Positions 16,582 through 29,961 of a stretch of 64,000 nt of DNA are shown one piece after another. The notes beneath the pieces were generated by a model. It was not told where the DNA came from, searched no databases, and worked only from the letters and a program-made list of their open reading frames with translations. Every line of letters begins with the position of its first letter. Position 1 is the first letter of the stretch. Made by a program: the position numbers and the translations under genes. Source of the DNA: Flavobacteriia bacterium 40-80 (GTDB taxonomy: Bacteria; Bacteroidota; Bacteroidia; Flavobacteriales_D; Crocinitomicaceae); NCBI GenBank assembly GCA_001899145.1, contig MKVF01000018.1, forward strand, positions 372,001 through 436,000, written 5' to 3'.

Positions 16582-19500
16582 ATGAGATTATTTTACGCAT
16601 CTGCTAACCGCTTTTACACGATCCTTTTCGCTCTTATTTTATCACTTTTTCTGGTAAAAGGGAATACTTGGGGACAGACTGCTTCTGTTACAACAAGACC
16701 AAGTCATATTGACTTATCGAATTCAACCTCTGAAAGTGCCATTTTGATGACTTTATCCGGCTATTCTTCTAATGATGCCAGATATAGAATCTACAATGGG
16801 GGCAATCAGTATAATTGCTGGGATGAATCAACTAATGCTTATGTTGCGGCAACAGGATATGGTGCAGGGCCTAAAGTTGTTGGATCTCCCACTTCTACCA
16901 CAACCTTCTGGATATTGTTCCAAATAGGAACAAATACTACTTCCGCTGGATCCTATAGAGACAGACTAGGTACAGGGTATTCATCAAATTATCAGACAAC
17001 AACATTGCCATCTGCAACAGGATTTACTACATCTTCCTATAATTTAACGGGTACAATTGCCGGATGCGCAGCAAATCCTTTAACTAAAAAATATGTGGTC
17101 TTAGGATTTGATGCAACAAGCGGGGGAAATTTAATTGTAGCCTCTTCTACGGCGCTGACTTCCGGAACATTCAGTCTTTCTGCCCCTAATTCAATAACAA
17201 TAAGAAGGGTAGAGATTAGATCAATTTCAAATGATATTTTAAGTACTACCACAGGTACTTGGTCTAGTTCAACCAATATAGGTGCTTCAATTTCAATTTG
17301 CTCATATACTGTGACTTATAATTCTAATGGCGGTTCGGGTACCATGTCTAATCAAACGGCCTCAACGGCAACGAATCTGACATCGAATACATTCACCCGT
17401 TCCGGTTACATTTTTTCCGGCTGGAATACAGCGTCTAACGGTTCCGGTACAGCTTATGCCGATGGTGCGAGCTACCCTTTTACTGCAAGCACTACTTTAT
17501 ATGCTCAATGGACGGCAGTCGGCGGGCATACAGTGACCTTTAACGGGAATGGCGGAACAGGAAGCATGGCCTCTCAAAATGCCAGCTCGGCAACGAATCT
17601 GACATCGAATACATTCACCCGTTCCGGTTACACTTTTTCCGGCTGGAATACGGCATCCAACGGTTCCGGTATAGCTTATGCCAATGGAGTTTCCTATAAT
17701 TTTGCCGCTGATCTGACACTGTATGCACAGTGGTCAGCTAATATAAATACGATTACGTTCGATGCCAATGGCGGAACGGGGACAATGGCCAGTCAAAGCT
17801 TAGCGACAGACGCCACAGCCAATCTGAATACAAATTCATTTACCCGTACAGGCTATACCTTTGCAGGATGGGCAACAACTGCCGGAGGAGCTGTAGCCTA
17901 TACGAATGCGGCTTCCTACACGATGGGGACTTCCAATGTTACTTTATATGCTAAATGGACCGTTAATAATTACACCATTACATTTGACGGGAACGGTTCA
18001 ACAGGAGGCTCAATGTCAAATCAGGCCATTGTTGCTTTCGCCAGTGCGAATTTGACAGCGAATGCTTTTACACGAACGGGATATACGTTTTCAGGCTGGA
18101 ATACAGCCTCCGACGGAAGTGGAACAAGTTATGCCAACAGCGCATCGTACACCATGGGAACAGTCAATGTGACATTGTATGCACAGTGGACAGTTTATGT
18201 GGGGCCGTGCTTAGATGATAATTTTAATTCCGGTTACGGAAACTGGACTCTTGGGTCAGGTACATATCAAAATGCAACAGCTGGTTTAAGTAGTAATGGA
18301 ACGGGTTTTAATTCTACTGGTGATGATATTATTACAACAGTTTCAATTTCAAATCCCTCATCTATCTCATTTCAAGGAGCTGCTTCTGGTTCGACTTCAA
18401 GTTTTACTATTAAGGTTCAATATGCAACTAGTTCATCTGGACCATGGACTGATGAAGTAACACTTACAGCAAATGGTTCAAATACAGGTACTATTACCAG
18501 CACATGGAATTTATTTAACTTTCCACTTGTTTCAGGAGCTCATTTTTTAAGAATCATAATGAGCGCAAGATCAATTGGAAGTTTTTATCTGGACGATGTT
18601 CAGATTTTCTGTGCTCCTTTGTCTCCGGCACTTGAAGTTTCAACCACCACTTTAACAGGATTGGATTATACAGTCGGTTTTGGTCCATCGGCTGTACAGA
18701 CATTGACGCTGACCGGAAGTAATTTAGATGGTTCAGATGTTGAATTGATCACAGGAAACAACGATTTTGAAATTTCAGCAGATAATTCAACTTTTTCAGA
18801 TTATATCAACTTGGGAGCTTACAACGGAGCTTCCCAAACAATTTATGTGCGCTTAAAATCAGGGCTTCCCGTTAATTCTTACACAGATGTGATCTTAATC
18901 GCTGGAGGAGGAGTGGATATTGCGGATGAACCGGAAGTGAATATTTCAGGAAATGTAGTTCCTGTCGTTGCTCCTGTTATAACAAGTTCTGTTACACAGA
19001 CTGTTTCTTATGGAAGTACAGTATCTTATCAGATCACGGCATCAAATACTCCGACTTCATTCAGCGCTGCTAATCTGCCTGCAGGGCTGAGCGTGAATGC
19101 CGCTACAGGAATTATTTCAGGAACCGTGACAGAAAATGTGGGAACTGTTTTGACAACAATTACGGCGACAAATTCAGCAGGATCCGATAATAAAACATTA
19201 ACCTGGACGATCACTCCGAAAACCTTAACTATTTCAGGCCTGACAGGAACAGATAAAGTATATGACGGGACCACTGCTGCTTCTGTTTCAGGAACAGTGG
19301 TGTTAAATGGGATTGTAGGTTCAGATAATGTGACTGTATCAGGAACCGGAACCGGACTTTTTGATGATAAAAATGTCGGAACAGGGAAAACGATTACTGT
19401 TTCAGGCTATACACTTTCCGGTACTAAAGCAGGAAATTATACACTTACACAACCTGCAGCAACAGCTAATATCACCGTAAAAACATTGACCGTAACAGGG

Positions 19501-22227
19501 GCAACTGCACAAAATAAAGTGTATGACGGAACGGCAACCGCAACAATAACAGGAGGAACATTGGTAGGAGTAATTTCTCCTGATGCTGTTACATTTTCGG
19601 GAGGAGGAACATTTGCTTCTCCGAATGCAGGAACAGGAATTTCAGTAACACCATCACTTACATTAAGCGGTACACAAGCGGGTAACTATACACTGACACA
19701 GCCAACAGGTTTGTCTGCTACTATCACGAAAGCAAATCCGGTGTTTACAACTTCTACAATTAATATTACGGTGGGCGGAACATATTCCCTTCCGGGAGCG
19801 AATATTTCAAGTACATCAGATGGAACACTTTCCTATATTATTACAAATGGTGGAAACGCAACGTTGTTCGGAACGACGATTACGGGAGAAGGCGCAGGAA
19901 CGGAAACGTTGACAGTGAGTCAGGCGGCAAGCACAAATTATAATTCCGGAAATACAACAGTGACGGTGAATGTTGCATCTTTCAATACAGGAGATTACAG
20001 AACTACGAGTAGTGGAAACTGGCATTCTACAGCGGCTAGTAACACAGCAACATGGGAACAGTTTAATGGAACAACTTGGGTAACTTCCTCGGCTCCGGGG
20101 ATTAACGTTGCTTCATTAGGGACAAAAACAGTCTATATCAGAGATTCTATTTATCTGGTTGGAAATAACACAGCCCCATATGTAGTTATTGCAAATGGAG
20201 GAATTTTAAATACATCTACAGTAACTGCTACTTTTGGTAATTTATTAGTTAAGAGTGGAGGTAAATTTTATAGAAAAGCTAACGGATCCGGGGTAAGTGG
20301 GACTTTTGAAGTAGAAGATAACGGGACAGTCTATTTTTATCATACAAATACAACATCTCGTTCATCATCCATCTGGTCAGGAACAGAAAAATTTCATTCG
20401 AATTCCAACTTTTACATCCGTGAATCTCAAAATTCCGGAGGCTTTTTAATTATTGAGTCAAATAATGATGTATCGGAATATAACGGAGCTTGCTTCGGGA
20501 ATCTTTATATTGATCTTGTTGACGGTGGTAAAATGAGCCTTATCCCGGCTAATTTCACAAAAACGCTTGCGAATAACTTAATATTTAGAACTGGAACGGA
20601 AAATTTCACAATATCAAGCGGAGGCACAACCTTAAATGTATTGAATAATCTTATAATGGAAAGTACATTTAATTATAATATGACCTACCTTACTGCAAGC
20701 GGGACAACAAATTCTACTATAGGAGGAAAGCTTATCAATAATTCTTCAAAAGTCTTTAGATTAGTAAACAATGCTTCAGGCAATGTAACTGTAAATGTAG
20801 CTGGTAACGTAGAAATTAATTCCGGTTCAATAGAGGTAAACTTTAATGGGACAGGACTTTTAAATATCCAGGGAAATCTTACTGTTGCATCAGGAGCAAG
20901 CTTGACTGCAAATAGCGCAACTACCGCAACCGTGAGATTTAGCGGAGGAAATGTACAAAATGTCTCAGGAGCAGGCACAATTAATATCTATCACGGAGAA
21001 ATTAGTAAATCCGGGGGTATTGTTAATCTGCAGCGTAATTTGCAGGTGAGAAATACTTTAAAAATGATATCCGGAAATCTTCAGACTAATGCTTACCTGT
21101 TTGAGCTCGGAGAAAGTACTTCCCAAACCGGAACGTTAACTTACACTTCAGGCTATGTGCTTGGAAATATGAAACGCTGGTTTAGTGGAACATCTGCAGG
21201 TACGGATACAAAAGATCTATTCCCGTTAGGATATGATGAAAGTGGAATTAAAAACCGCTTCGCAAAAATCAGATTTACGGGAGGTGCTCCTTCCGGTGCA
21301 TTAACTGCCCATTTTGTCGGTTCTCCAATGGGAGCTAATGTACTTCCGATAGTAGTTGGTTCTGCTAACTCTGCACCGGATATCACATTCGATATTACAT
21401 CAACTGAAAATCAGGGATATTGGGATATAAGCGCTTCTTCCGGAACATTTTCGTCCGCGGAAACTTATACGGCAACACTCGTAGGAGAAGGATTCACAAC
21501 GATAACAGATGTCTCCAGGCTGGTATTGCTGAAACGCCCTGATGCTGCTACGGCATGGTTCGTTCCCGGAACAAGCGGAACCGGCACTACAATTAATACA
21601 TTTCCTGCAGTAGTCAGAAACGGAATTTCAACGTTCTCTCATTTTGGTTTTGGCGGAGCGGATGAAAATCCACTGCCAATCCAATTGCTGTCTTTCAATG
21701 TCTCCTGTGAAAATAACCAGCATGTAGCGATCAGCTGGTCAACGGCAACTGAGACAAACAATGAGAAATTTATCGTTGAGAAATCTCGTAATGCGAGTGA
21801 TTGGTCTGTGCTGGAAGAAGTGAAAGGACAGGGAAATTCCAATAAAGTAGTGAACTATGAGCTGACCGATCGTAAATTAGCAAGCGGAACAACTTATTAC
21901 CGTCTTGCACAAGTGGATTTTGACGGAAAACAAACAACCTATAATTCGGTGAGCACGACATGTGAAGGAACAGAAACAATAGTAGTATATCCGAATCCTG
22001 CTTCTGCTTTGTTGAATGTCGCGATTAACAGCAATAATTTAAATGGAAACATCACAGTCTCTTTGATCGGTACAGACGGAAAAATTATCGAACAACGTCA
22101 GTTTATGGCAGACAGTGAAAATACACTTATAACATTTAACGTTGCGCCGTTGCAGGCAGGGATGTATTTCATACAGCTCCAGGATTCTGAAGGAACGTTT
22201 AAAGCAGAAAAAGTGCAGGTGAAATAA
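16582..22227 (+). CDS. Giant repeat-containing T9SS cargo protein
   Basis: 1881 residues with signal peptide (ILFALILSLFLVKGNTWGQ). Domain order read from sequence: unique region (30-235), then four InlB/Listeria-Bacteroides-type repeats (about 239-537; each FDANGGxGTMxxQ...FTRxGYTFSGWNTA...LYAQW). A jelly-roll-like region follows (542-678), then an Ig-like region (684-794) and a putative Ig domain (797-879, ITASNTPTSFSAANLPAGLSV). Two YDG/MBG-type repeats come next (YDGTTAASVSGT, YDGTATATITGG; 880-1055), then an MBG-like segment and a long beta-helix-like region (1140-1600). Residues 1696-1881 are the NPLPIQLLSF module with a type A sorting tail. This is typical of adhesins; ligand unknown. 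Same C-terminal module as the preceding gene. Confidence 0.9.
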   Translation: MRLFYASANRFYTILFALILSLFLVKGNTWGQTASVTTRPSHIDLSNSTSESAILMTLSGYSSNDARYRIYNGGNQYNCWDESTNAYVAATGYGAGPKVVGSPTSTTTFWILFQIGTNTTSAGSYRDRLGTGYSSNYQTTTLPSATGFTTSSYNLTGTIAGCAANPLTKKYVVLGFDATSGGNLIVASSTALTSGTFSLSAPNSITIRRVEIRSISNDILSTTTGTWSSSTNIGASISICSYTVTYNSNGGSGTMSNQTASTATNLTSNTFTRSGYIFSGWNTASNGSGTAYADGASYPFTASTTLYAQWTAVGGHTVTFNGNGGTGSMASQNASSATNLTSNTFTRSGYTFSGWNTASNGSGIAYANGVSYNFAADLTLYAQWSANINTITFDANGGTGTMASQSLATDATANLNTNSFTRTGYTFAGWATTAGGAVAYTNAASYTMGTSNVTLYAKWTVNNYTITFDGNGSTGGSMSNQAIVAFASANLTANAFTRTGYTFSGWNTASDGSGTSYANSASYTMGTVNVTLYAQWTVYVGPCLDDNFNSGYGNWTLGSGTYQNATAGLSSNGTGFNSTGDDIITTVSISNPSSISFQGAASGSTSSFTIKVQYATSSSGPWTDEVTLTANGSNTGTITSTWNLFNFPLVSGAHFLRIIMSARSIGSFYLDDVQIFCAPLSPALEVSTTTLTGLDYTVGFGPSAVQTLTLTGSNLDGSDVELITGNNDFEISADNSTFSDYINLGAYNGASQTIYVRLKSGLPVNSYTDVILIAGGGVDIADEPEVNISGNVVPVVAPVITSSVTQTVSYGSTVSYQITASNTPTSFSAANLPAGLSVNAATGIISGTVTENVGTVLTTITATNSAGSDNKTLTWTITPKTLTISGLTGTDKVYDGTTAASVSGTVVLNGIVGSDNVTVSGTGTGLFDDKNVGTGKTITVSGYTLSGTKAGNYTLTQPAATANITVKTLTVTGATAQNKVYDGTATATITGGTLVGVISPDAVTFSGGGTFASPNAGTGISVTPSLTLSGTQAGNYTLTQPTGLSATITKANPVFTTSTINITVGGTYSLPGANISSTSDGTLSYIITNGGNATLFGTTITGEGAGTETLTVSQAASTNYNSGNTTVTVNVASFNTGDYRTTSSGNWHSTAASNTATWEQFNGTTWVTSSAPGINVASLGTKTVYIRDSIYLVGNNTAPYVVIANGGILNTSTVTATFGNLLVKSGGKFYRKANGSGVSGTFEVEDNGTVYFYHTNTTSRSSSIWSGTEKFHSNSNFYIRESQNSGGFLIIESNNDVSEYNGACFGNLYIDLVDGGKMSLIPANFTKTLANNLIFRTGTENFTISSGGTTLNVLNNLIMESTFNYNMTYLTASGTTNSTIGGKLINNSSKVFRLVNNASGNVTVNVAGNVEINSGSIEVNFNGTGLLNIQGNLTVASGASLTANSATTATVRFSGGNVQNVSGAGTINIYHGEISKSGGIVNLQRNLQVRNTLKMISGNLQTNAYLFELGESTSQTGTLTYTSGYVLGNMKRWFSGTSAGTDTKDLFPLGYDESGIKNRFAKIRFTGGAPSGALTAHFVGSPMGANVLPIVVGSANSAPDITFDITSTENQGYWDISASSGTFSSAETYTATLVGEGFTTITDVSRLVLLKRPDAATAWFVPGTSGTGTTINTFPAVVRNGISTFSHFGFGGADENPLPIQLLSFNVSCENNQHVAISWSTATETNNEKFIVEKSRNASDWSVLEEVKGQGNSNKVVNYELTDRKLASGTTYYRLAQVDFDGKQTTYNSVSTTCEGTETIVVYPNPASALLNVAINSNNLNGNITVSLIGTDGKIIEQRQFMADSENTLITFNVAPLQAGMYFIQLQDSEGTFKAEKVQVK
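17299..18192 (+). repeat. Four tandem InlB-type (Flg_new) repeats within giant cargo gene
   Basis: Four units of about 70 residues, each starting with FNGNGGTGSM-type and ending LYAQW/LYAKW. Units 1 and 2 share a 45-base perfect match (17366-17410 and 17588-17632) with a 222-base period and further near identity. Units 3 and 4 are more diverged. The first two units therefore arose or were homogenised recently. Confidence 0.85.
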
Positions 22228-22263
22228 AAGTTTTTGAATGCTTAATATTGAATACTGAACACT

Positions 22264-22443
22264 ATGACAGCTGTTCATTTTAGCATGTTGTCCCCTGATG
22301 GGAAATTAATTAATGAACAGTCTTTTGTCCAGCAGAATGATTTGAAATATATGATAGATGTTTCGGATTATACGCAAAGTATTTATATGATAAATATCAG
22401 CATATCTGAAGGAAAGGTAACAAAGAAGTTTACAGTTCAATAA
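22264..22443 (+). pseudogene. Orphan T9SS type A sorting-tail fragment
   Basis: A 59-residue frame, ATG 22264 to TAA 22441-22443. It reads as the second half of a type A sorting domain: VHFSMLSPDGKLINEQSF, then SIYMINISISEGKVTKKFTVQ. It has no signal peptide, no body and no YPNP start of the domain. It lies 36 bases after the giant cargo gene and just before a terminator. Most likely the residual 3' end of a deleted third cargo gene, or of the original tail replaced by the NPLPIQLLSF module. Confidence 0.7.
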
Positions 22444-22506: not shown

Positions 22507-22519
22507 GGTTGAACCAACC
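22507..22519. promoter_or_regulatory. Inverted repeat ggttg-aac-caacc upstream of ECF sigma gene
   Basis: A perfect 5-bp inverted repeat with a 3-base spacer, 51 bases before the sigma factor ATG. It could be a regulator binding site or part of the promoter. No T-run follows closely enough for a terminator. Confidence 0.3.
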
Positions 22520-22569
22520 TTTTAATTTTTTAATTCGTTATTTTTATTGAAGTGAATAGTTAGGCGCGC

Positions 22570-23145
22570 ATGGCAATTGACCTCAGCATATTACAGCGGT
22601 GTATCGATAATGATCAGAGAGCATTAAAACAGCTTTACGAGTACAGCTTTTGCAGACTGATGCCTCTTTGTGTGCGTTATCATAACAATCAGGAAGACGC
22701 GCGTGCAAGCCTGAATATCGCTTTTATGAAGATTGTACAGAACCTGCCATCCATGGAGTTTGAGAAATTTAATTATGAAGCGTGGTCAAAGAGAATTATG
22801 ACAAATACACTGATTGATGAGTACCGTAAGCAGAAGCTGAGAAATGAGCATTATATAAAAAAAGAGACAGAGCGCGAGCTGGACAACATTTCGGAAGCGG
22901 TAACGAATGAAGGAATGGAGAATCTGAACCATGAATTTCTTATGAAGCTGCTTCAGCAGCTTCCTGAGACAACCCGCATGGTTTTTAATTTACATGTTGT
23001 TGAAGGATATGGACATAAAGAAATTTCTGAAATGCTTTCCATTCCTGAAGGAACATCGAAGTGGCATGTATCCAATGCCCGGAAATTAATGAAGGAATTA
23101 TTGGAAAAAGTATTAAATAAAACGACATTAGATGAATTTATCTGA
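22570..23145 (+). CDS. ECF-type RNA polymerase sigma-70 factor
   Basis: 191 residues. Region 2 is seen at about 10-85 (LYEYSFCRLMPLCVRYHNNQEDARASLNIAFMKIVQNL...WSKRIMTNTLIDEYRKQK). Region 4 lies at about 125-182 (LLQQLPETTRMVFNLHVVEGYGHKEISEMLSIPEGTSKWHVSNARKLMKEL). No region 1.1 or 3. It overlaps the next gene by 14 bases, so they are translationally coupled. It should direct transcription of an envelope- or surface-related regulon, perhaps including this operon. Confidence 0.92.
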   Translation: MAIDLSILQRCIDNDQRALKQLYEYSFCRLMPLCVRYHNNQEDARASLNIAFMKIVQNLPSMEFEKFNYEAWSKRIMTNTLIDEYRKQKLRNEHYIKKETERELDNISEAVTNEGMENLNHEFLMKLLQQLPETTRMVFNLHVVEGYGHKEISEMLSIPEGTSKWHVSNARKLMKELLEKVLNKTTLDEFI

Positions 23146-24418
23146 TAAAGACATAGATCAGTTATTTCAGCAGGCGGACGGAAAAGCTTCTTTTGAATTT
23201 AAGGACGCTTATTGGTCGGAAATGCAACAGATACTTCAAAAGAAGGATCGCAGAAAAGCCGTTGCATGGTGGCTGAACGTATGGTTTTTACTGCCGGTAT
23301 CCTTATTATTATCACTTTCCATTATGGCCGGTTTTTCCGGAAGAGGAAATACAGATCAGGAAATAGCTGTTGAAGAGGAGACCGGAATCGCTGAATTGCT
23401 TAAGGTTTCACTCAATACAAGTAAGTTGAAGACAGAAGATGAAAGTCCTTCAGAGATGAACATCAAAACGGTACAGAATTACAGTTTGGAAAGAGCTGTA
23501 AGTGGTTCTTCAGTGCAAAGCTTCCGTAACGGTGAAAAAGGAAATGGCAAAATCAGAACATACAACCAATCAGCCGGGATTTCTGCAGGAAATAAACGGA
23601 TTACAAATAACTCCAGGGTGGAAGAATACCATTCTTCTGTAATTCCGGAAGAGAACGATGTAATAGCACAGGAAAATGAGACTATGGAAATTATATCGGA
23701 AAATCCAGTGATAACAATGGATTCACCTGATTCAGAAACGGATGCCGACAGTGCAGAAGCTGTTCAAGAGGCTGTCACGTCTCTTACAGAAAGCCTTGTT
23801 TCCGATCCTGCCTTAAAACCAAAATGGAATATGTATGTCGGTGCTGGAATCGGAATGGTAACAAATCTCGGACTTTCAGGAAAACACTACGGAGCAGGAG
23901 TCGTACGCCTGGAATATGGTATCTCCAAAGCGTTCGGGCGATTTACAGTTTCACCTGCAATTGCAATTGAGAGCACATTCGGGACGTCCGTTTCCTTTGT
24001 AAATAAATATTATGAGTACGATTTTATCCGGAATGAGAAGATGCAGGAGTATAATTATAACCGGTTTACAAATGTTCTGATCCCGGTGCGTGCCGGGTAT
24101 TATCTGGGAAAAAGCCGGAAAAGCCATCTGCAGCTTATGGTGGCACCTGTGTTTATGCTGAACAACAACCTGGTGTACAAAGAATCCAAAAATGGCGTTC
24201 TGATGGCAAAAGATGAATATTTCAATCAGCATCTCGGATTGAACGGGTTTTATCTGAATTTGGGAATAGGATATTCGTTCATGCTTTCCCGTAACTGCTC
24301 TCTTGGCCTGGAATACAATAACAATTTGGGAATGAACCGGGATAAATCTCTTTCTGGCCTGTCCCAATCAAAAACAGATCATCAATTTATTATTCAGCTC
24401 AGATATTTTATAAAATGA
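23132..24418 (+). CDS. Anti-sigma-like inner-membrane protein fused to a beta-barrel domain
   Basis: 428 residues. An acidic cytoplasmic-type N-terminus (MNLSDKDIDQLFQQADGKASFEFKDAYWSEMQQIL, about 1-40) precedes one membrane helix (44-68). A low-complexity linker with acidic, Ser and Thr residues follows (70-230). The last ~195 residues show alternating beta strands, e.g. WNMYVGAGIGMV, RLEYGISKAFGRFTVSPAIAIE, FYLNLGIGYSFML, and end in HQFIIQLRYFIK. They resemble PorT/outer-membrane beta-barrel families. The coupling to an ECF sigma suggests an anti-sigma role for the N-terminus (inference; no zinc motif seen). The fusion could bridge both membranes. Confidence 0.75.
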   Translation: MNLSDKDIDQLFQQADGKASFEFKDAYWSEMQQILQKKDRRKAVAWWLNVWFLLPVSLLLSLSIMAGFSGRGNTDQEIAVEEETGIAELLKVSLNTSKLKTEDESPSEMNIKTVQNYSLERAVSGSSVQSFRNGEKGNGKIRTYNQSAGISAGNKRITNNSRVEEYHSSVIPEENDVIAQENETMEIISENPVITMDSPDSETDADSAEAVQEAVTSLTESLVSDPALKPKWNMYVGAGIGMVTNLGLSGKHYGAGVVRLEYGISKAFGRFTVSPAIAIESTFGTSVSFVNKYYEYDFIRNEKMQEYNYNRFTNVLIPVRAGYYLGKSRKSHLQLMVAPVFMLNNNLVYKESKNGVLMAKDEYFNQHLGLNGFYLNLGIGYSFMLSRNCSLGLEYNNNLGMNRDKSLSGLSQSKTDHQFIIQLRYFIK

Positions 24419-25473
24419 GAAACTTTATTTATTTACTTTCGATTTGCTTACTTGTTGTACTTTCCTGTAAAAAGGAGGAAGTAGTTCCCATACAACCGGC
24501 AAATTCCCCTGTATTCAGATCAATGGTATATATAGGCGAGGATTCCTCAACTTTTATTGCAGGAGAACAAGGGGTCCTGGTATCGAATACAAGTATGGAA
24601 AATGGAGTGTATCGTATAAACGCCCTGTTTGTAAATAATGATAATTCTTTGTCTTTTACACTGAATGACGGGAAAATAGGTGATAAAACACCCTTGATCC
24701 AGAAACTGATGAGTCAAAGCAAGCTGCAGGTCACCTCTTTTAGTCCTTTGTCTTACACCTATCCCCTGGATACTTTAAAAAAACTATTAGGTGGGGCGGT
24801 AGATCTTTATATTAATGAACAGAAGCTGATAACAGATAATTACGTGTTCTCTTCGCCGGGAATCTACACGCTCAAAGTAGTAAAGAATTATGAAGGACAG
24901 ACTTATACGATCAGTAATGACTGGTATGTGGGATATCAGAATCCTTATGGAAACCTGAGCTTTGCCTATGACGCGGGGAGCCATAAAATGGTAGCGGATA
25001 TCTCCGGAGGCTTTATCCCGAAAACAGCCGTAAAATGGTATCTTGATGGAGAGTTGATAGGAGAAGGCCTGAAGTTGATGAAAAATTTAAACGATCAGGG
25101 ATTGAAGAAGTTAACAGCAGTAGTGATCTTTAATGGTGAAGAAAAGAAATTTGAAAGCCTCATAGATTTTAATCAGGGAGGCGTGAACCAGGTTTATGAT
25201 GTGAAGCAATACGATTATTTACTTCAGGATAATCAGTGGCAAGACTTCCGATTTACCTTAAAAGTAAAGCTGAATGGTAAGGAATGGGAGGTGATCCCCG
25301 GCACAACCGCAGAGCTGAAAATAGACGCGCTGTCTTACTATAAAAACATCGGTGGAAAAGACATTTACTTGCTGGAGACTAATGGCATGTCCTTGAAATT
25401 CAGAAATATTGAGACCGGAGAAATCCGGCAGGGAAAAATAATTTTTAAAGGAGGGTTAGAGTTCCCGTATTAA
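24415..25473 (+). CDS. Hypothetical lipoprotein in ECF sigma operon
   Basis: 352 residues, overlapping the previous stop by four bases (ATGA). Signal peptide with lipobox LLVVLSCKK (Cys18). The body is beta-rich with apparent Ig/PKD-like stretches (e.g. VFSSPGIYTLKVVKNYEGQTYTISNDWYVG; PYGNLSFAYDAGSHKMVADISGGF). No family recognised. Its placement in the sigma/anti-sigma transcript suggests a periplasmic or surface partner of the signalling system. Confidence 0.75.
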   Translation: MRNFIYLLSICLLVVLSCKKEEVVPIQPANSPVFRSMVYIGEDSSTFIAGEQGVLVSNTSMENGVYRINALFVNNDNSLSFTLNDGKIGDKTPLIQKLMSQSKLQVTSFSPLSYTYPLDTLKKLLGGAVDLYINEQKLITDNYVFSSPGIYTLKVVKNYEGQTYTISNDWYVGYQNPYGNLSFAYDAGSHKMVADISGGFIPKTAVKWYLDGELIGEGLKLMKNLNDQGLKKLTAVVIFNGEEKKFESLIDFNQGGVNQVYDVKQYDYLLQDNQWQDFRFTLKVKLNGKEWEVIPGTTAELKIDALSYYKNIGGKDIYLLETNGMSLKFRNIETGEIRQGKIIFKGGLEFPY

Positions 25474-25517
25474 AATTTCTCTATATTTACTTATTTTTAA
25501 ATAGCCAAGAAACACTT

Positions 25518-26588
25518 ATGAAAAAATTTTATATTGCACTTTCAGTTTTGCTTTCTGTTCAGTTAAATGCACAGATTTCTTTATCGAAACAACATTTCGC
25601 GACAAAAGGAGATAATGAAAGGATGTCTTCCGCTTCTGCTTCTTCACAAGTGGACCTTAATACCGGGGCAGATTATGTATGGGACTTTTCTCATCTGACG
25701 GCTGAGAGCCAACTCGTGGAAGAGTACGGGAATATCAGTTCATTGGGAGCTGTTGCGGGGCTTCAGTTCGGGAGTTTTGCACCTAATAAATACAAAGCAT
25801 CTTATTTTATTTTAAACCAGGATGTTCCGCTTCAGTATCTGCCATCCTTCCTGCCGATTACATTTTCCGATTATAATAATATCATGCAGCTGTCAGCCGA
25901 CTCTTTAAGCCTTGTCGGTGTAACGGTTTCGATTAACGGGCAGTCACTTCCTATCCGTTACAGCGATATTGAAGCACAGTTTTATTTTCCGGTGAACTAC
26001 GGAGATCATTACACTACTTATGGTAAATTTGATCAGGATATGAGTCCTGTTTATAACGCGCAGTGGAGACAAAAGCGAGAACACGAGGTGGATGTGGATG
26101 GCTGGGGAAAAGTGACAACACCAATTGGAACTTTTGATGCTTTAAGAATTAAGCACACGATCGTTGAGCAGGATTCTATTTATGCTTCTGTGAGCGGTTT
26201 CGGGATGTGGTTTCCGCTGAACGTTCCGACGCAGGTGATCTATGAATGGAGAACGCTGGAAGAAAAAAGCCCTGTTGTGCGCATTAAAGCAAATATCGTT
26301 GGTGGTAACGAAGTTGTTCGTTCGGTTCAGTTTCGGGACAATGTCATTCTTGGAACAGAAAACCTGTCGGAAGAAAACTTGTCGGTTTACCCTAATCCTG
26401 TAGAGAATGTGCTGAATATCAGTCCCGGCTTATTCGATAAATATAAAATAATGACAATCGATGGAAAGCTGGTTCTTTCAGGTTCTGTTACCAATGCGGT
26501 TGATTGCTCTCAGCTAAATGCAGGAACCTATATTATTCAGCTGAATGCGGATACAATGGTAAAAAATATAACATTCGTAAAACGCTGA
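25518..26588 (+). CDS. Secreted protein with T9SS type A sorting domain
   Basis: 356 residues: signal peptide (MKKFYIALSVLLSVQLNAQ), about 260 residues of unrecognised beta-rich sequence, and a C-terminal type A sorting domain (SVYPNPVENVLNI...TIDGKLVLSGSV...GTYIIQLN...KNITFVKR). It lies 44 bases after the lipoprotein gene and before a terminator, so it is probably the last gene of the ECF operon. Confidence 0.85.
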   Translation: MKKFYIALSVLLSVQLNAQISLSKQHFATKGDNERMSSASASSQVDLNTGADYVWDFSHLTAESQLVEEYGNISSLGAVAGLQFGSFAPNKYKASYFILNQDVPLQYLPSFLPITFSDYNNIMQLSADSLSLVGVTVSINGQSLPIRYSDIEAQFYFPVNYGDHYTTYGKFDQDMSPVYNAQWRQKREHEVDVDGWGKVTTPIGTFDALRIKHTIVEQDSIYASVSGFGMWFPLNVPTQVIYEWRTLEEKSPVVRIKANIVGGNEVVRSVQFRDNVILGTENLSEENLSVYPNPVENVLNISPGLFDKYKIMTIDGKLVLSGSVTNAVDCSQLNAGTYIIQLNADTMVKNITFVKR

Positions 26589-27722: not shown

Positions 27723-28940
27723 ATGCAGGCAGAAAAATTAATCTCAAAGTACCTAACACTTTTTGTTATTGTTTTATTGGCATCGTACCTTTTTGTAGGA
27801 CTCAAAGAGTTTCTGAGCGCTTTTTTAGGTGCTATCGTTTTCTATATTCTTTTTAGAAAGTTCATGAGATTCCTTGTATATACAAAGAAGTGGAATAAAG
27901 CGCTTGGTGCTGTTATTATTATATTGATCTCCTTCTTGATAGTCGTTCTGCCAATCGGTCTGATCGGAATAATGATCACAAGAAAGATCATGGAAATAGT
28001 AAGCAGCCCGGATTTGATTCAAAAATACAGTATAATGCTGGAGGAGAAGCTGAAGCTGTTCCCGGGTAGCTATACCATTGAGGACATTACAGCTACGGTG
28101 ACGAAATTTACTTCCAGTCATATCGGAGATGTTTTAAATTCTACAGCAGATATTGTAGCCAGCTTGCTGATGATGTACTTTTTTCTTTACTTCCTGTTGG
28201 TAAACGTGCAGAAGCTGGAGGAAGGACTGGTTTTTTATCTGCCCTTTGAAGACGAAAAATTGAAAATGTTCGGAGAAGAGTTGGTGGATCAGACGATCGG
28301 AAATGCTATAGGAGTACCAATGGTTGCCGCTGCGCAGGGACTTTCCGCATGGCTGGCCTATTGGATTGCAGGAGTTCCTGATGCCGGAATGTATGCGCTT
28401 TTAACAGGAGTAGCCTCTATCATTCCGCTGGTGGGAACCGCGATTGTCTGGGTTCCGGTCGCTGCAATTCTGCTGGCGAGCAATATGATCTGGCAGGGAA
28501 TCTTTATCATCACTTTCTGTGTGGTAATAATGACAAATCTGGATAATGTAGTCAGGATGATCGTATTTAAGAGAGTGGGAGATGTACACCCGGTAATTAC
28601 AGTATTGGGAGTCATACTCGGATTAAAATACTTCGGCCTTCCCGGGTTGGTCTTCGGACCTTTGCTGATTTCATATCTGGTACTGCTGCTGAAAATTTAT
28701 CACCAGGAGTTCAATGTAAAAAAACGGCACCTGAAAATAGATAATGAACCGGTTAGCGGAAGTGGTAATCTGAGCCAAAACCAAATAATGAACTTAATAA
28801 ACAAGTATCTGTTTTTCACAGAGAAGATGAAACAGGAGAACTTTAAGCCGGCAAGGGGAGAAGGAAGTTACGGTGATCAGGAAAATAAAAAACAAGAGGA
28901 AACAAACGATAACAATTCCGTAATTCCGGAAGAAAAGTAG
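27723..28940 (+). CDS. AI-2E family transporter (PerM/TqsA-like)
   Basis: 405 residues with about eight hydrophobic segments. Characteristic sequence: VLPIGLIGIMITRKI; the conserved core GVPMVAAAQGLSAWLAYWIAGVPDAGMYALLTGVASIIPLVGTAIVWVPVA; and LGLKYFGLPGLVFGPLLISYL. The family exports small molecules or ions (AI-2 in TqsA, Na+ or Li+ in some members). A hydrophilic acidic tail of about 60 residues ends the protein. Converges with the radical SAM gene with one base between stops. Confidence 0.9.
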   Translation: MQAEKLISKYLTLFVIVLLASYLFVGLKEFLSAFLGAIVFYILFRKFMRFLVYTKKWNKALGAVIIILISFLIVVLPIGLIGIMITRKIMEIVSSPDLIQKYSIMLEEKLKLFPGSYTIEDITATVTKFTSSHIGDVLNSTADIVASLLMMYFFLYFLLVNVQKLEEGLVFYLPFEDEKLKMFGEELVDQTIGNAIGVPMVAAAQGLSAWLAYWIAGVPDAGMYALLTGVASIIPLVGTAIVWVPVAAILLASNMIWQGIFIITFCVVIMTNLDNVVRMIVFKRVGDVHPVITVLGVILGLKYFGLPGLVFGPLLISYLVLLLKIYHQEFNVKKRHLKIDNEPVSGSGNLSQNQIMNLINKYLFFTEKMKQENFKPARGEGSYGDQENKKQEETNDNNSVIPEEK

Positions 28941-28941
28941 C

Positions 28942-29961
28942 TTATACCCAAACCTTAGCGCCTTCTGAGCAGTTTTTACAGATCTCAATCTGAGACCGGT
29001 TTTGCAGCACAGCTTTCCGGAACTGGTTATAACGTTCCTCTTTCCACAATACAGAGAATGGAGCGTCTGATGTATCCCCGAGGATGTGACGGGCATCTTT
29101 GTCAAAGCAGCAGGGAACTATTTTTAAATCCCAGGTGAAAACGCAGGAAGACCACATCCGCCAGCAATTATTGGACAACTTGTATTTGAATTCGTAAGTC
29201 CCGTCGGATTTTTTTTTGTAACGGGCATATTTTTCATTTTCAGGGATCAGGGGATTACCGTTTTTGTAGTCATATACCTGAGCTGATTTCAAACGCACTT
29301 CATCAATTCCGATTTCCCGTGCAAGCTCATAAATTTTCGGAATATCCTGCTCGTTGGGTTTCACTACAAGAAACTGAAAAATCAGATATGGTGTATGGCT
29401 TTTTAATTTTTTCTTCGCCTGAACCAAATGGCGTGAGGCTTCTAATACCTTTTCCAATTTCCCGTGGATACGGTAATTTTCATAGGTCTGCTGTGAAGCG
29501 CCGTCAATGGATATGATCAGCCGGTCTAAGCCGGACAGGACAATTTCTTCAGCTTTTTTTTCATTGATAAAATGCGCATTGGTTGATGTCGCCGTATAAA
29601 TCCTGCGTTTTTTGGCGGCTTTGATCAGTTCCAGAAATTGTGGATGTAAAAAAGGCTCTCCCTGAAAATAATAAGTGATGTAAAAAACACTTTTTTTCAA
29701 CTGTTCAAGCAATTGCTCGTTTTTTTGTAAATCCAGCTTACCGGTAGCCCGTGTGAATTGCTTTAGCCCGCTTGGGCATTCAGGACACGCCAGATTACAG
29801 GCAGTGGTCGGTTCGATGCTGACACTTAGCGGTTGTCCCCAGACAGTACTTTTCCTGAAGCTTTTGGAATAATGATAGCTGAGTCGTAAAGCAAATAAGT
29901 TCGTGACTCTTCTAAAAGTCAGGTGCCTGGCTAATTGAAAAAAGTCACGAACTTTACTCAT
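28942..29961 (-). CDS. Radical SAM/SPASM domain protein
   Basis: 339 residues. The radical SAM cluster motif CxxxCxxC is C55-N-L-A-C59-P-E-C62. Then come QGEPFLHPQF (GGEP-like) and LDRLIISIDGASQQTYENYR. The C-terminal part (about 260-339) has SPASM-type cysteines (NNCWRMWSSC, VPCCFDKD, ICKNCSEG), which usually bind extra Fe-S clusters. Members modify peptides, proteins or small molecules; no precursor peptide gene is seen nearby, so the substrate is unknown. On the minus strand, 45 bases after the large membrane protein. Confidence 0.88.
   Translation of the reverse strand: MSKVRDFFQLARHLTFRRVTNLFALRLSYHYSKSFRKSTVWGQPLSVSIEPTTACNLACPECPSGLKQFTRATGKLDLQKNEQLLEQLKKSVFYITYYFQGEPFLHPQFLELIKAAKKRRIYTATSTNAHFINEKKAEEIVLSGLDRLIISIDGASQQTYENYRIHGKLEKVLEASRHLVQAKKKLKSHTPYLIFQFLVVKPNEQDIPKIYELAREIGIDEVRLKSAQVYDYKNGNPLIPENEKYARYKKKSDGTYEFKYKLSNNCWRMWSSCVFTWDLKIVPCCFDKDARHILGDTSDAPFSVLWKEERYNQFRKAVLQNRSQIEICKNCSEGAKVWV

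Follow-up and report, generated by a model that had tools for sequence, protein, structure and literature searches.

We examined a 64,000-nucleotide stretch of DNA from Flavobacteriia bacterium 40-80 (contig MKVF01000018.1, positions 372,001 to 436,000), hereafter the window, and focused on a row of four genes at positions 22570 to 26588. We think it likely that these genes form an autoregulated switch, made of an extracytoplasmic function (ECF) sigma factor and a Dma-type anti-sigma factor, whose outputs are exported proteins. The placement of a shared promoter motif suggests that the pair switches on genes for surface-bound proteins, many of them exported through the type IX secretion system (T9SS). 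The regulator is of a known kind. Dma1-3 of Bacteroides thetaiotaomicron are presented as dual membrane-spanning anti-sigma factors in the available parts of their report, so the two-membrane design is already published (PMC13088901). The new part is the conserved four-gene operon together with its predicted regulon of exported proteins.

The four open reading frames (ORFs) all lie on the plus strand. The first (22570..23145, 191 amino acids) encodes an ECF sigma factor with matches in Pfam (Sigma70_r4_2 at 2.8e-14, Sigma70_ECF, and Sigma70_r2) and in NCBIfam. It is followed by the Dma-like regulator (23132..24418, 428 amino acids), a lipoprotein with a lipobox at Cys18 (24415..25473, 352 amino acids), and a T9SS type-A cargo protein (25518..26588, 356 amino acids). 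The sigma and regulator genes overlap by 14 bp, the regulator and lipoprotein genes by 4 bp (ATGA), and a gap of 44 bp separates the lipoprotein gene from the cargo gene. ORF calls, overlaps, and domain matches thus agree with the original prediction of four tightly coupled genes with these products.

A search for this gene order across relatives was positive. We scanned 62 loci (58 from relatives, 3 from Saprospiraceae, and the window), and 52 of them held a Dma-like gene. The sigma gene was directly upstream of it in 51 of the 52, the remaining locus (L115) being a contig end. A lipoprotein gene of the same family lay downstream in 40 of the 52 loci, the cargo family was found in 19, and the complete four-gene order was present in 14, with the window counted. 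The cargo threshold was strict and left uncounted a divergent cargo gene that is in place at L028 (BLAST 2.6e-9). Because the loci were picked by matches in the Dma or cargo search, these fractions are not population estimates. In a class-wide search that scored no more than five candidates in each genome, 155 of 296 genomes had a match to the Dma profile at 1e-4. Within the window's own 3.5-Mb genome, the 428-amino-acid protein has no further copy by a single-protein search. The cargo protein also occurs apart from the operon, since 10 of the 20 stretches retrieved with its profile had no Dma-like gene. Relative to the window, the sigma factor beside the Dma-like gene was 45 to 56% identical in 14 of 21 related loci and 34 to 42% in the other 7. 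The cargo protein (31 to 41% in eight relatives) was better conserved than the regulator, which was 15 to 19% identical in 12 relatives and 14 to 16% in the three Saprospiraceae over full-length alignments.

Upstream of the operon we identified an ECF-type promoter, CCAACC-N16-CGTT, at 22514..22539 on the plus strand, 30 bp before the sigma start codon. We refer to this pattern as the strict motif. We then looked at the 250 bp upstream of the sigma genes paired with a Dma-like gene, dropping one pair with a short upstream region. A relaxed form, CAAC(C/T)-N15..17-CGT, was present in 36 of 51 cases (24/28 in the family set and 12/23 elsewhere), while shuffles gave an expectation of 0.60. L023 was scored as a miss in this count, with its site at -256. 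The strict form stood before 22 of the 51 genes. When a core pattern, AACC-N15..18-CGT(T/A/C), was sought from 300 bp before each gene through its first 60 bases, 30 of 51 sigma genes had a site, against an expectation of 1.8 by shuffling; a single site among the 30 was intragenic. Since a conserved ECF-type promoter precedes the sigma gene, the operon is probably autoregulated. This would match Dma2, because deletion of dma2 is described as raising das2 and nearby genes in the accessible parts of that study (PMC13088901).

The same motif was found elsewhere in operon-bearing relatives. The genomes of 12 such relatives contain 102 strict sites, of which 11 are the operons' own; the operon promoter of G012 is not a strict match. 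One script classified 90 of the 91 remaining sites (G490:C7:131729 was left out), the first 60 having been picked for AT-rich spacers. Of these 90, 55 were intergenic and 45 had a gene start within 250 bp. For the reversed control pattern, CCAACC-N16-TTGC, 30 of its 88 sites were examined, and only one was intergenic and none preceded a gene. The products of the motif-preceded genes looked exported: 38 of 45 were signal-peptide-like, compared with 70 of 172 background genes (p 1e-7). A T9SS sorting domain was present in 16 of the 33 complete products versus 1 of 172 background genes (p 7e-14), where the background comes from a strict home-made model applied to genes near the operons, so that a real rate of a few percent is possible. 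Counted per family, with families grouped by eye, the figure was 8 of 22 (p 6e-8). One cargo family stood behind the motif in 6 of the 12 genomes, and two of its representatives were confirmed by TIGR04183. A 344-amino-acid member aligned with the operon's cargo protein from end to end (hhalign 99.0%, 322 columns, 21% identity), a score that is partly owed to the common sorting domain. Because the motif lies before genes for exported proteins, T9SS cargo looks like an output of the system.

The placement of the motif before genes also depended on the operon. Our comparison set was 12 genomes of the family that were first taken as operon-free. One of these, G022, has a strong Dma homologue (7.4e-30, profile search) and was therefore removed with its three loci, leaving 27 of 30; both gene-preceding sites of the 12-genome set belonged to it. 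None of the 27 sites examined (of 49) in the 11 genomes that lack a strong homologue stood before a gene. Four of these genomes keep weaker Dma-like proteins, and seven have none at 1e-3. Among the 30 loci that the motif search returned from 18 operon-bearing genomes, 16 sites stood before a gene (two of these genes being operon sigma genes), and 14 were signal-peptide-like. The difference between 0/27 and 14/30 was significant (p 2e-5).

Of the three strict sites in the window's own genome, one lies before the operon, another falls within an opposite-strand gene, and the third is 45 bp before the gene for a 224-amino-acid lipoprotein (C21). Of 120 family genomes searched, 114 contain this lipoprotein. 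Its orthologues were retrieved at 29 loci, 3 of which were dropped because the start was not recognized. The relaxed motif was upstream of 11 of the remaining 26 genes, with 0.22 expected and 0/26 and 1/26 for the control patterns. The operon promoter and the motif before this gene make it likely that the genome has at least two motif-driven transcription units. Two relaxed sites were also inspected: C2:4787 (L278) lies 28 bp before the gene for a large signal-peptide protein, and C18:526750 lies before a doubtful 144-amino-acid frame.

Several results weigh against our interpretation, as do a few on the regulator that are given below. The 102 strict sites in the 12 relatives compare with 88 for the reversed pattern, and in the window genome the controls were more numerous for both the strict motif (3 sites versus 8) and the relaxed pattern (19 versus 25). 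Overall counts, which do not or barely exceed the controls, were thus rejected as evidence, and the signal of the motif is its placement, not its number. The signal-peptide score is lenient, given the share of background genes that pass it, and on its own was likewise rejected. Of the 51 regions upstream of sigma genes, 15 lack the relaxed promoter (11 of these 15 belong to loci outside the family set), and the lipoprotein match is absent from 12 of the 52 loci. Lastly, other ECF factors might use the same motif.

This last point leads to the best of the alternatives, in which the motif is a general ECF promoter read by several sigma factors and the exported-protein genes are not mainly under this pair. 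Promoters common to several ECF factors were thought possible for SM6 of Flavobacterium psychrophilum in the available text of that study (PMC9723704). In addition, at least one relative (G425) carries two sigma/Dma pairs, and the second is also preceded by a similar site, with a spacer of 15. However, of the motif sites in the 11 genomes that have no strong homologue, the 27 of 49 examined never stood before a gene, although four of these genomes keep weaker Dma-like proteins, and the strict motif precedes 22 of the 51 Dma-paired sigma genes themselves. We therefore consider this explanation unlikely and prefer control by the sigma/Dma pair.

As a separate observation, an RpoD-like sigma gene of one relative (L261, G005) has the motif 71 bp upstream, and in two others (L254/L259; G015, G034) the motif lies about 248 bp ahead of a gene resembling that of another ECF factor. 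These sites hint at sigma cascades or are due to chance.

The remaining two products of the operon are the lipoprotein and the cargo protein. The residues after Cys18 of the lipoprotein are KKEE, in agreement with C-X-K-(D/E)2, an export signal defined in Capnocytophaga canimorsus according to the part of that work available (PMC5080379). A simple pattern gave a lipobox in 34 operon lipoproteins, 7 of which fit the signal exactly, and none in two more. Surface exposure is thus plausible for the window lipoprotein, a reading that we do not extend to the family. The protein matched no Pfam family at E 1, and none of 12 members matched a NigD family at 0.1. Against solved structures, its profile gave a weak match to a surface glycan-binding protein (E 0.0068). 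The sorting domain of the cargo protein, at about 26385-26585 on the plus strand, matches PF18962 (3.1e-9, 37.4 bits, cutoff 27) and TIGR04183 (2.5e-8, 33.8 bits, cutoff 23). Its signal peptide was seen by eye only.

The original prediction held that T9SS secretion could be the sensed process, and a system that responds to T9SS flux or blockage would agree with the cargo gene in the operon at 19 of 52 loci and with T9SS cargo among the motif-preceded genes. ECF control of T9SS components is also reported as known in Porphyromonas gingivalis (SigP; PMC7712824) and as suggested in F. psychrophilum (PMC9723704), in the portions of these papers at hand. However, we found no sequence feature tying the barrel of the regulator to T9SS parts, and the cargo family was not in the operon at 20 loci from outside the window's order or at the three Saprospiraceae loci. 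The motif-preceded genes include those for cargo and lipoproteins, and no T9SS machinery gene was recognized among them by eye, without a systematic search. The evidence points to T9SS cargo and lipoproteins as controlled genes, the idea of secretion as the stimulus gained no support, and we regard it as quite improbable.

We next consider the regulator, whose layout was measured in 46 proteins of the scanned loci that match the Dma profile at 1e-20, window included. As in the Dma class, all 46 were found by sequence to have a cytoplasmic N-terminus, one inner-membrane helix, and a long linker. The N-terminal motif, DIDQLF...FEFKDAYWxEM (residues 1-40, 23132..23251, plus strand), is the best conserved part and a probable sigma-binding segment: the mean frequency of the majority residue was 0.41 over the N-terminal 40 residues, 0.24 in the linker, and 0.33 in the C-terminal domain. 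In four loci (L031, L040, L118, and L119) and in the G022 homologue (L387), an (F/Y)W-x-E motif is repeated three to four times before the helix, as if these proteins could hold several sigma molecules.

The helix spans residues 50-68 (23279..23335, plus strand), with a mean hydropathy of 2.09 over 19 residues, and is probably N-in because KKDRRK stands before it. It starts at residue 43 to 55 in most of the 46 proteins, with later positions in those that have a longer N-terminus or an early automatic start. Among the remaining counterpoints, its presence is partly by construction, since the helix was defined as the stretch of highest hydrophobicity ahead of the barrel, and in one homologue it is weak (1.32). 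The linker that follows, predicted to be periplasmic (residues 70-228, 23339..23815, plus strand), is acidic (30 D/E versus 13 K/R) and poorly conserved. From the end of the helix to the first strand there are 165 residues in the window protein and 127 to 231 (median, 168) across the 46 proteins. Each residue adds about 0.33 nm, so that even the shortest linker, of 127 residues, can cross the periplasm.

We read the C-terminal domain (residues 230-428, 23819..24415, plus strand; 189 to 242 residues among the 46 proteins) as an eight-stranded outer-membrane barrel. By eye, eight stretches alternate between hydrophobic and small or polar residues (approximately 234-243, 258-268, 271-279, 312-325, 333-343, 373-385, 389-399, and 417-427), with glycines on the polar face and a hydrophobic/aromatic last strand. 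Two-residue alternation in the homologue alignment reached 66 windows, compared with a mean of 11.1 and a maximum of 34 in 2000 column shuffles, and was significant for the window protein alone (p 0.002). At 1e-3, OMP_b-brl_2 was matched by 13 of 29 homologues, the strongest of them at 4.5e-14, and at 0.01 by 6 of 16 members. On the opposing side, the window regulator itself was below the cutoff for both OMP_b-brl_2 (19.3 bits, cutoff 27) and OMP_b-brl (19.0 bits, cutoff 28.7). AlphaFold gave no confident model, either of the full-length protein with a four-row alignment (pLDDT 34) or of the C-terminal domain alone (pLDDT 30), and so the case for barrel closure is made from sequence. The Dma profile found nothing relevant among solved structures (one match, at E 0.67), and scans of viral contigs gave two sigma-like loci, neither with a Dma homologue.

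Alternatively, the protein could be an ordinary single-membrane anti-sigma factor whose C-terminal beta domain is soluble in the periplasm and which is activated when regulated proteolysis cuts it at the inner membrane. This would suit the lack of a confident fold and the sub-cutoff Pfam scores, and anti-sigma factors of that kind usually release their sigma factor through proteolysis. It is nevertheless very improbable given the homologues' barrel matches, the two-residue alternation with its polar-face glycines and hydrophobic/aromatic final strand, and the lack of any linker under 127 residues in the 46 proteins. At the level of sequence, a regulator that joins an inner-membrane helix to a predicted outer-membrane barrel is well supported. 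This part of the original prediction, a two-membrane regulator without a TonB-FecR pair, is supported as to architecture: Pfam searches found no FecR domain in the regulator at E 1 and no TonB receptor among the four genes. The concept itself was not new.

The neighborhood of the operon was also inspected. In relatives, a divergent gene that resembles one for a SixA-type phosphohistidine phosphatase adjoins the sigma gene in L023-L026, L029, L030, L037, L040, L106, L108-L112, L116, L118, and L119; it is not found in the window. The two genes past the operon (27723-29961), presumably for a multi-TM (transmembrane) protein and a radical-SAM-like protein, have look-alikes in place at L024 9772-11912 by eye, and the neighborhood is partly syntenic with that locus. 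The next gene upstream (16582-22227) encodes a T9SS cargo protein of 1881 amino acids in which List_Bact_rpt and YDG repeats occur. Right after its stop, 22228-22440 resembles by eye an extra sorting-domain tail without its own gene, perhaps the remnant of a duplicated end.

In its architecture, the window regulator fits the Dma class. As far as the consulted sections of the Dma report describe them, those factors come from gut Bacteroides and their phenotypes concern vesicles and glycans. Both systems pair a sigma gene with an anti-sigma factor that reaches, here by prediction, from the cytosol to the outer membrane, and both have surface-related outputs, which are likewise predicted here (PMC13088901). 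They differ in that the outputs of Dma1-3 are NigD1 and glycan use loci, whereas those inferred here are T9SS cargo and lipoproteins, and in that the present operon carries a lipoprotein gene and often a T9SS cargo gene. In Phocaeicola vulgatus, M0N98_03761/03760 is a similar pair, with the sigma gene upstream and an anti-sigma factor that is predicted to reach across the periplasm and to carry an outer-membrane barrel at its C-terminus. That pair is toxin induced, loss of its anti-sigma factor lengthens the O-antigen, and the available part of the report describes no T9SS gene (PMC9308784).

Two other systems tie an ECF factor to the T9SS, again according to the portions available. In the PorXY-SigP system of P. 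gingivalis, the ECF factor SigP controls T9SS components, sigP is autoregulated, and the surface C-terminal domain (CTD) protein PorA affects signaling. Unlike in our system, the response regulator PorX is the activator, T9SS machinery genes are controlled, and no Dma-type anti-sigma factor is described (PMC7712824). In F. psychrophilum, where ECF control of T9SS components was suggested, SM6 promoters share with ours an ECF-type CGT box at -10 and include those of a sigma/anti-sigma operon and of T9SS genes, but the machinery genes GldN and PorU are listed for SM6 (PMC9723704).

The gene order, the domain layout, the amphipathic pattern of the barrel, the minimum linker length, the conserved promoter, and the operon-dependent placement of the motif before exported-protein genes are backed by computation. 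From these data we infer sigma binding, outer-membrane insertion, recognition of the motif by this sigma factor, and the manner of its release, and arrive at the following model. The Dma-like protein would hold the sigma factor by its short N-terminal motif, cross the inner membrane once, span the periplasm with its long disordered linker, and end in an eight-stranded barrel in the outer membrane. An event at the surface or in the outer membrane, sensed by the barrel and perhaps by the co-encoded lipoprotein, would release the sigma factor. The freed sigma factor would then act at CCAACC-N16-CGTT promoters to transcribe the operon that encodes it, along with a limited group of lipoprotein and T9SS cargo genes. 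A further-reaching proposal, which we hold to be improbable as it stands, is that a single protein anchored in both membranes governs by feedback what makes up the T9SS-delivered surface. The barrel, with the lipoprotein and the operon's own cargo as ligand or gauge, would read the surface while the released sigma factor replenishes cargo and lipoproteins, and the variants of three to four motifs would hold or tune more sigma factor.

If the promoter evidence holds, a Dma-type switch would also operate elsewhere in the Bacteroidota, where it would govern surface proteins that are put in place by T9SS and lipoprotein export. It would likewise give the coupling of the outer surface to transcription in this phylum a named motif and a short list of genes.

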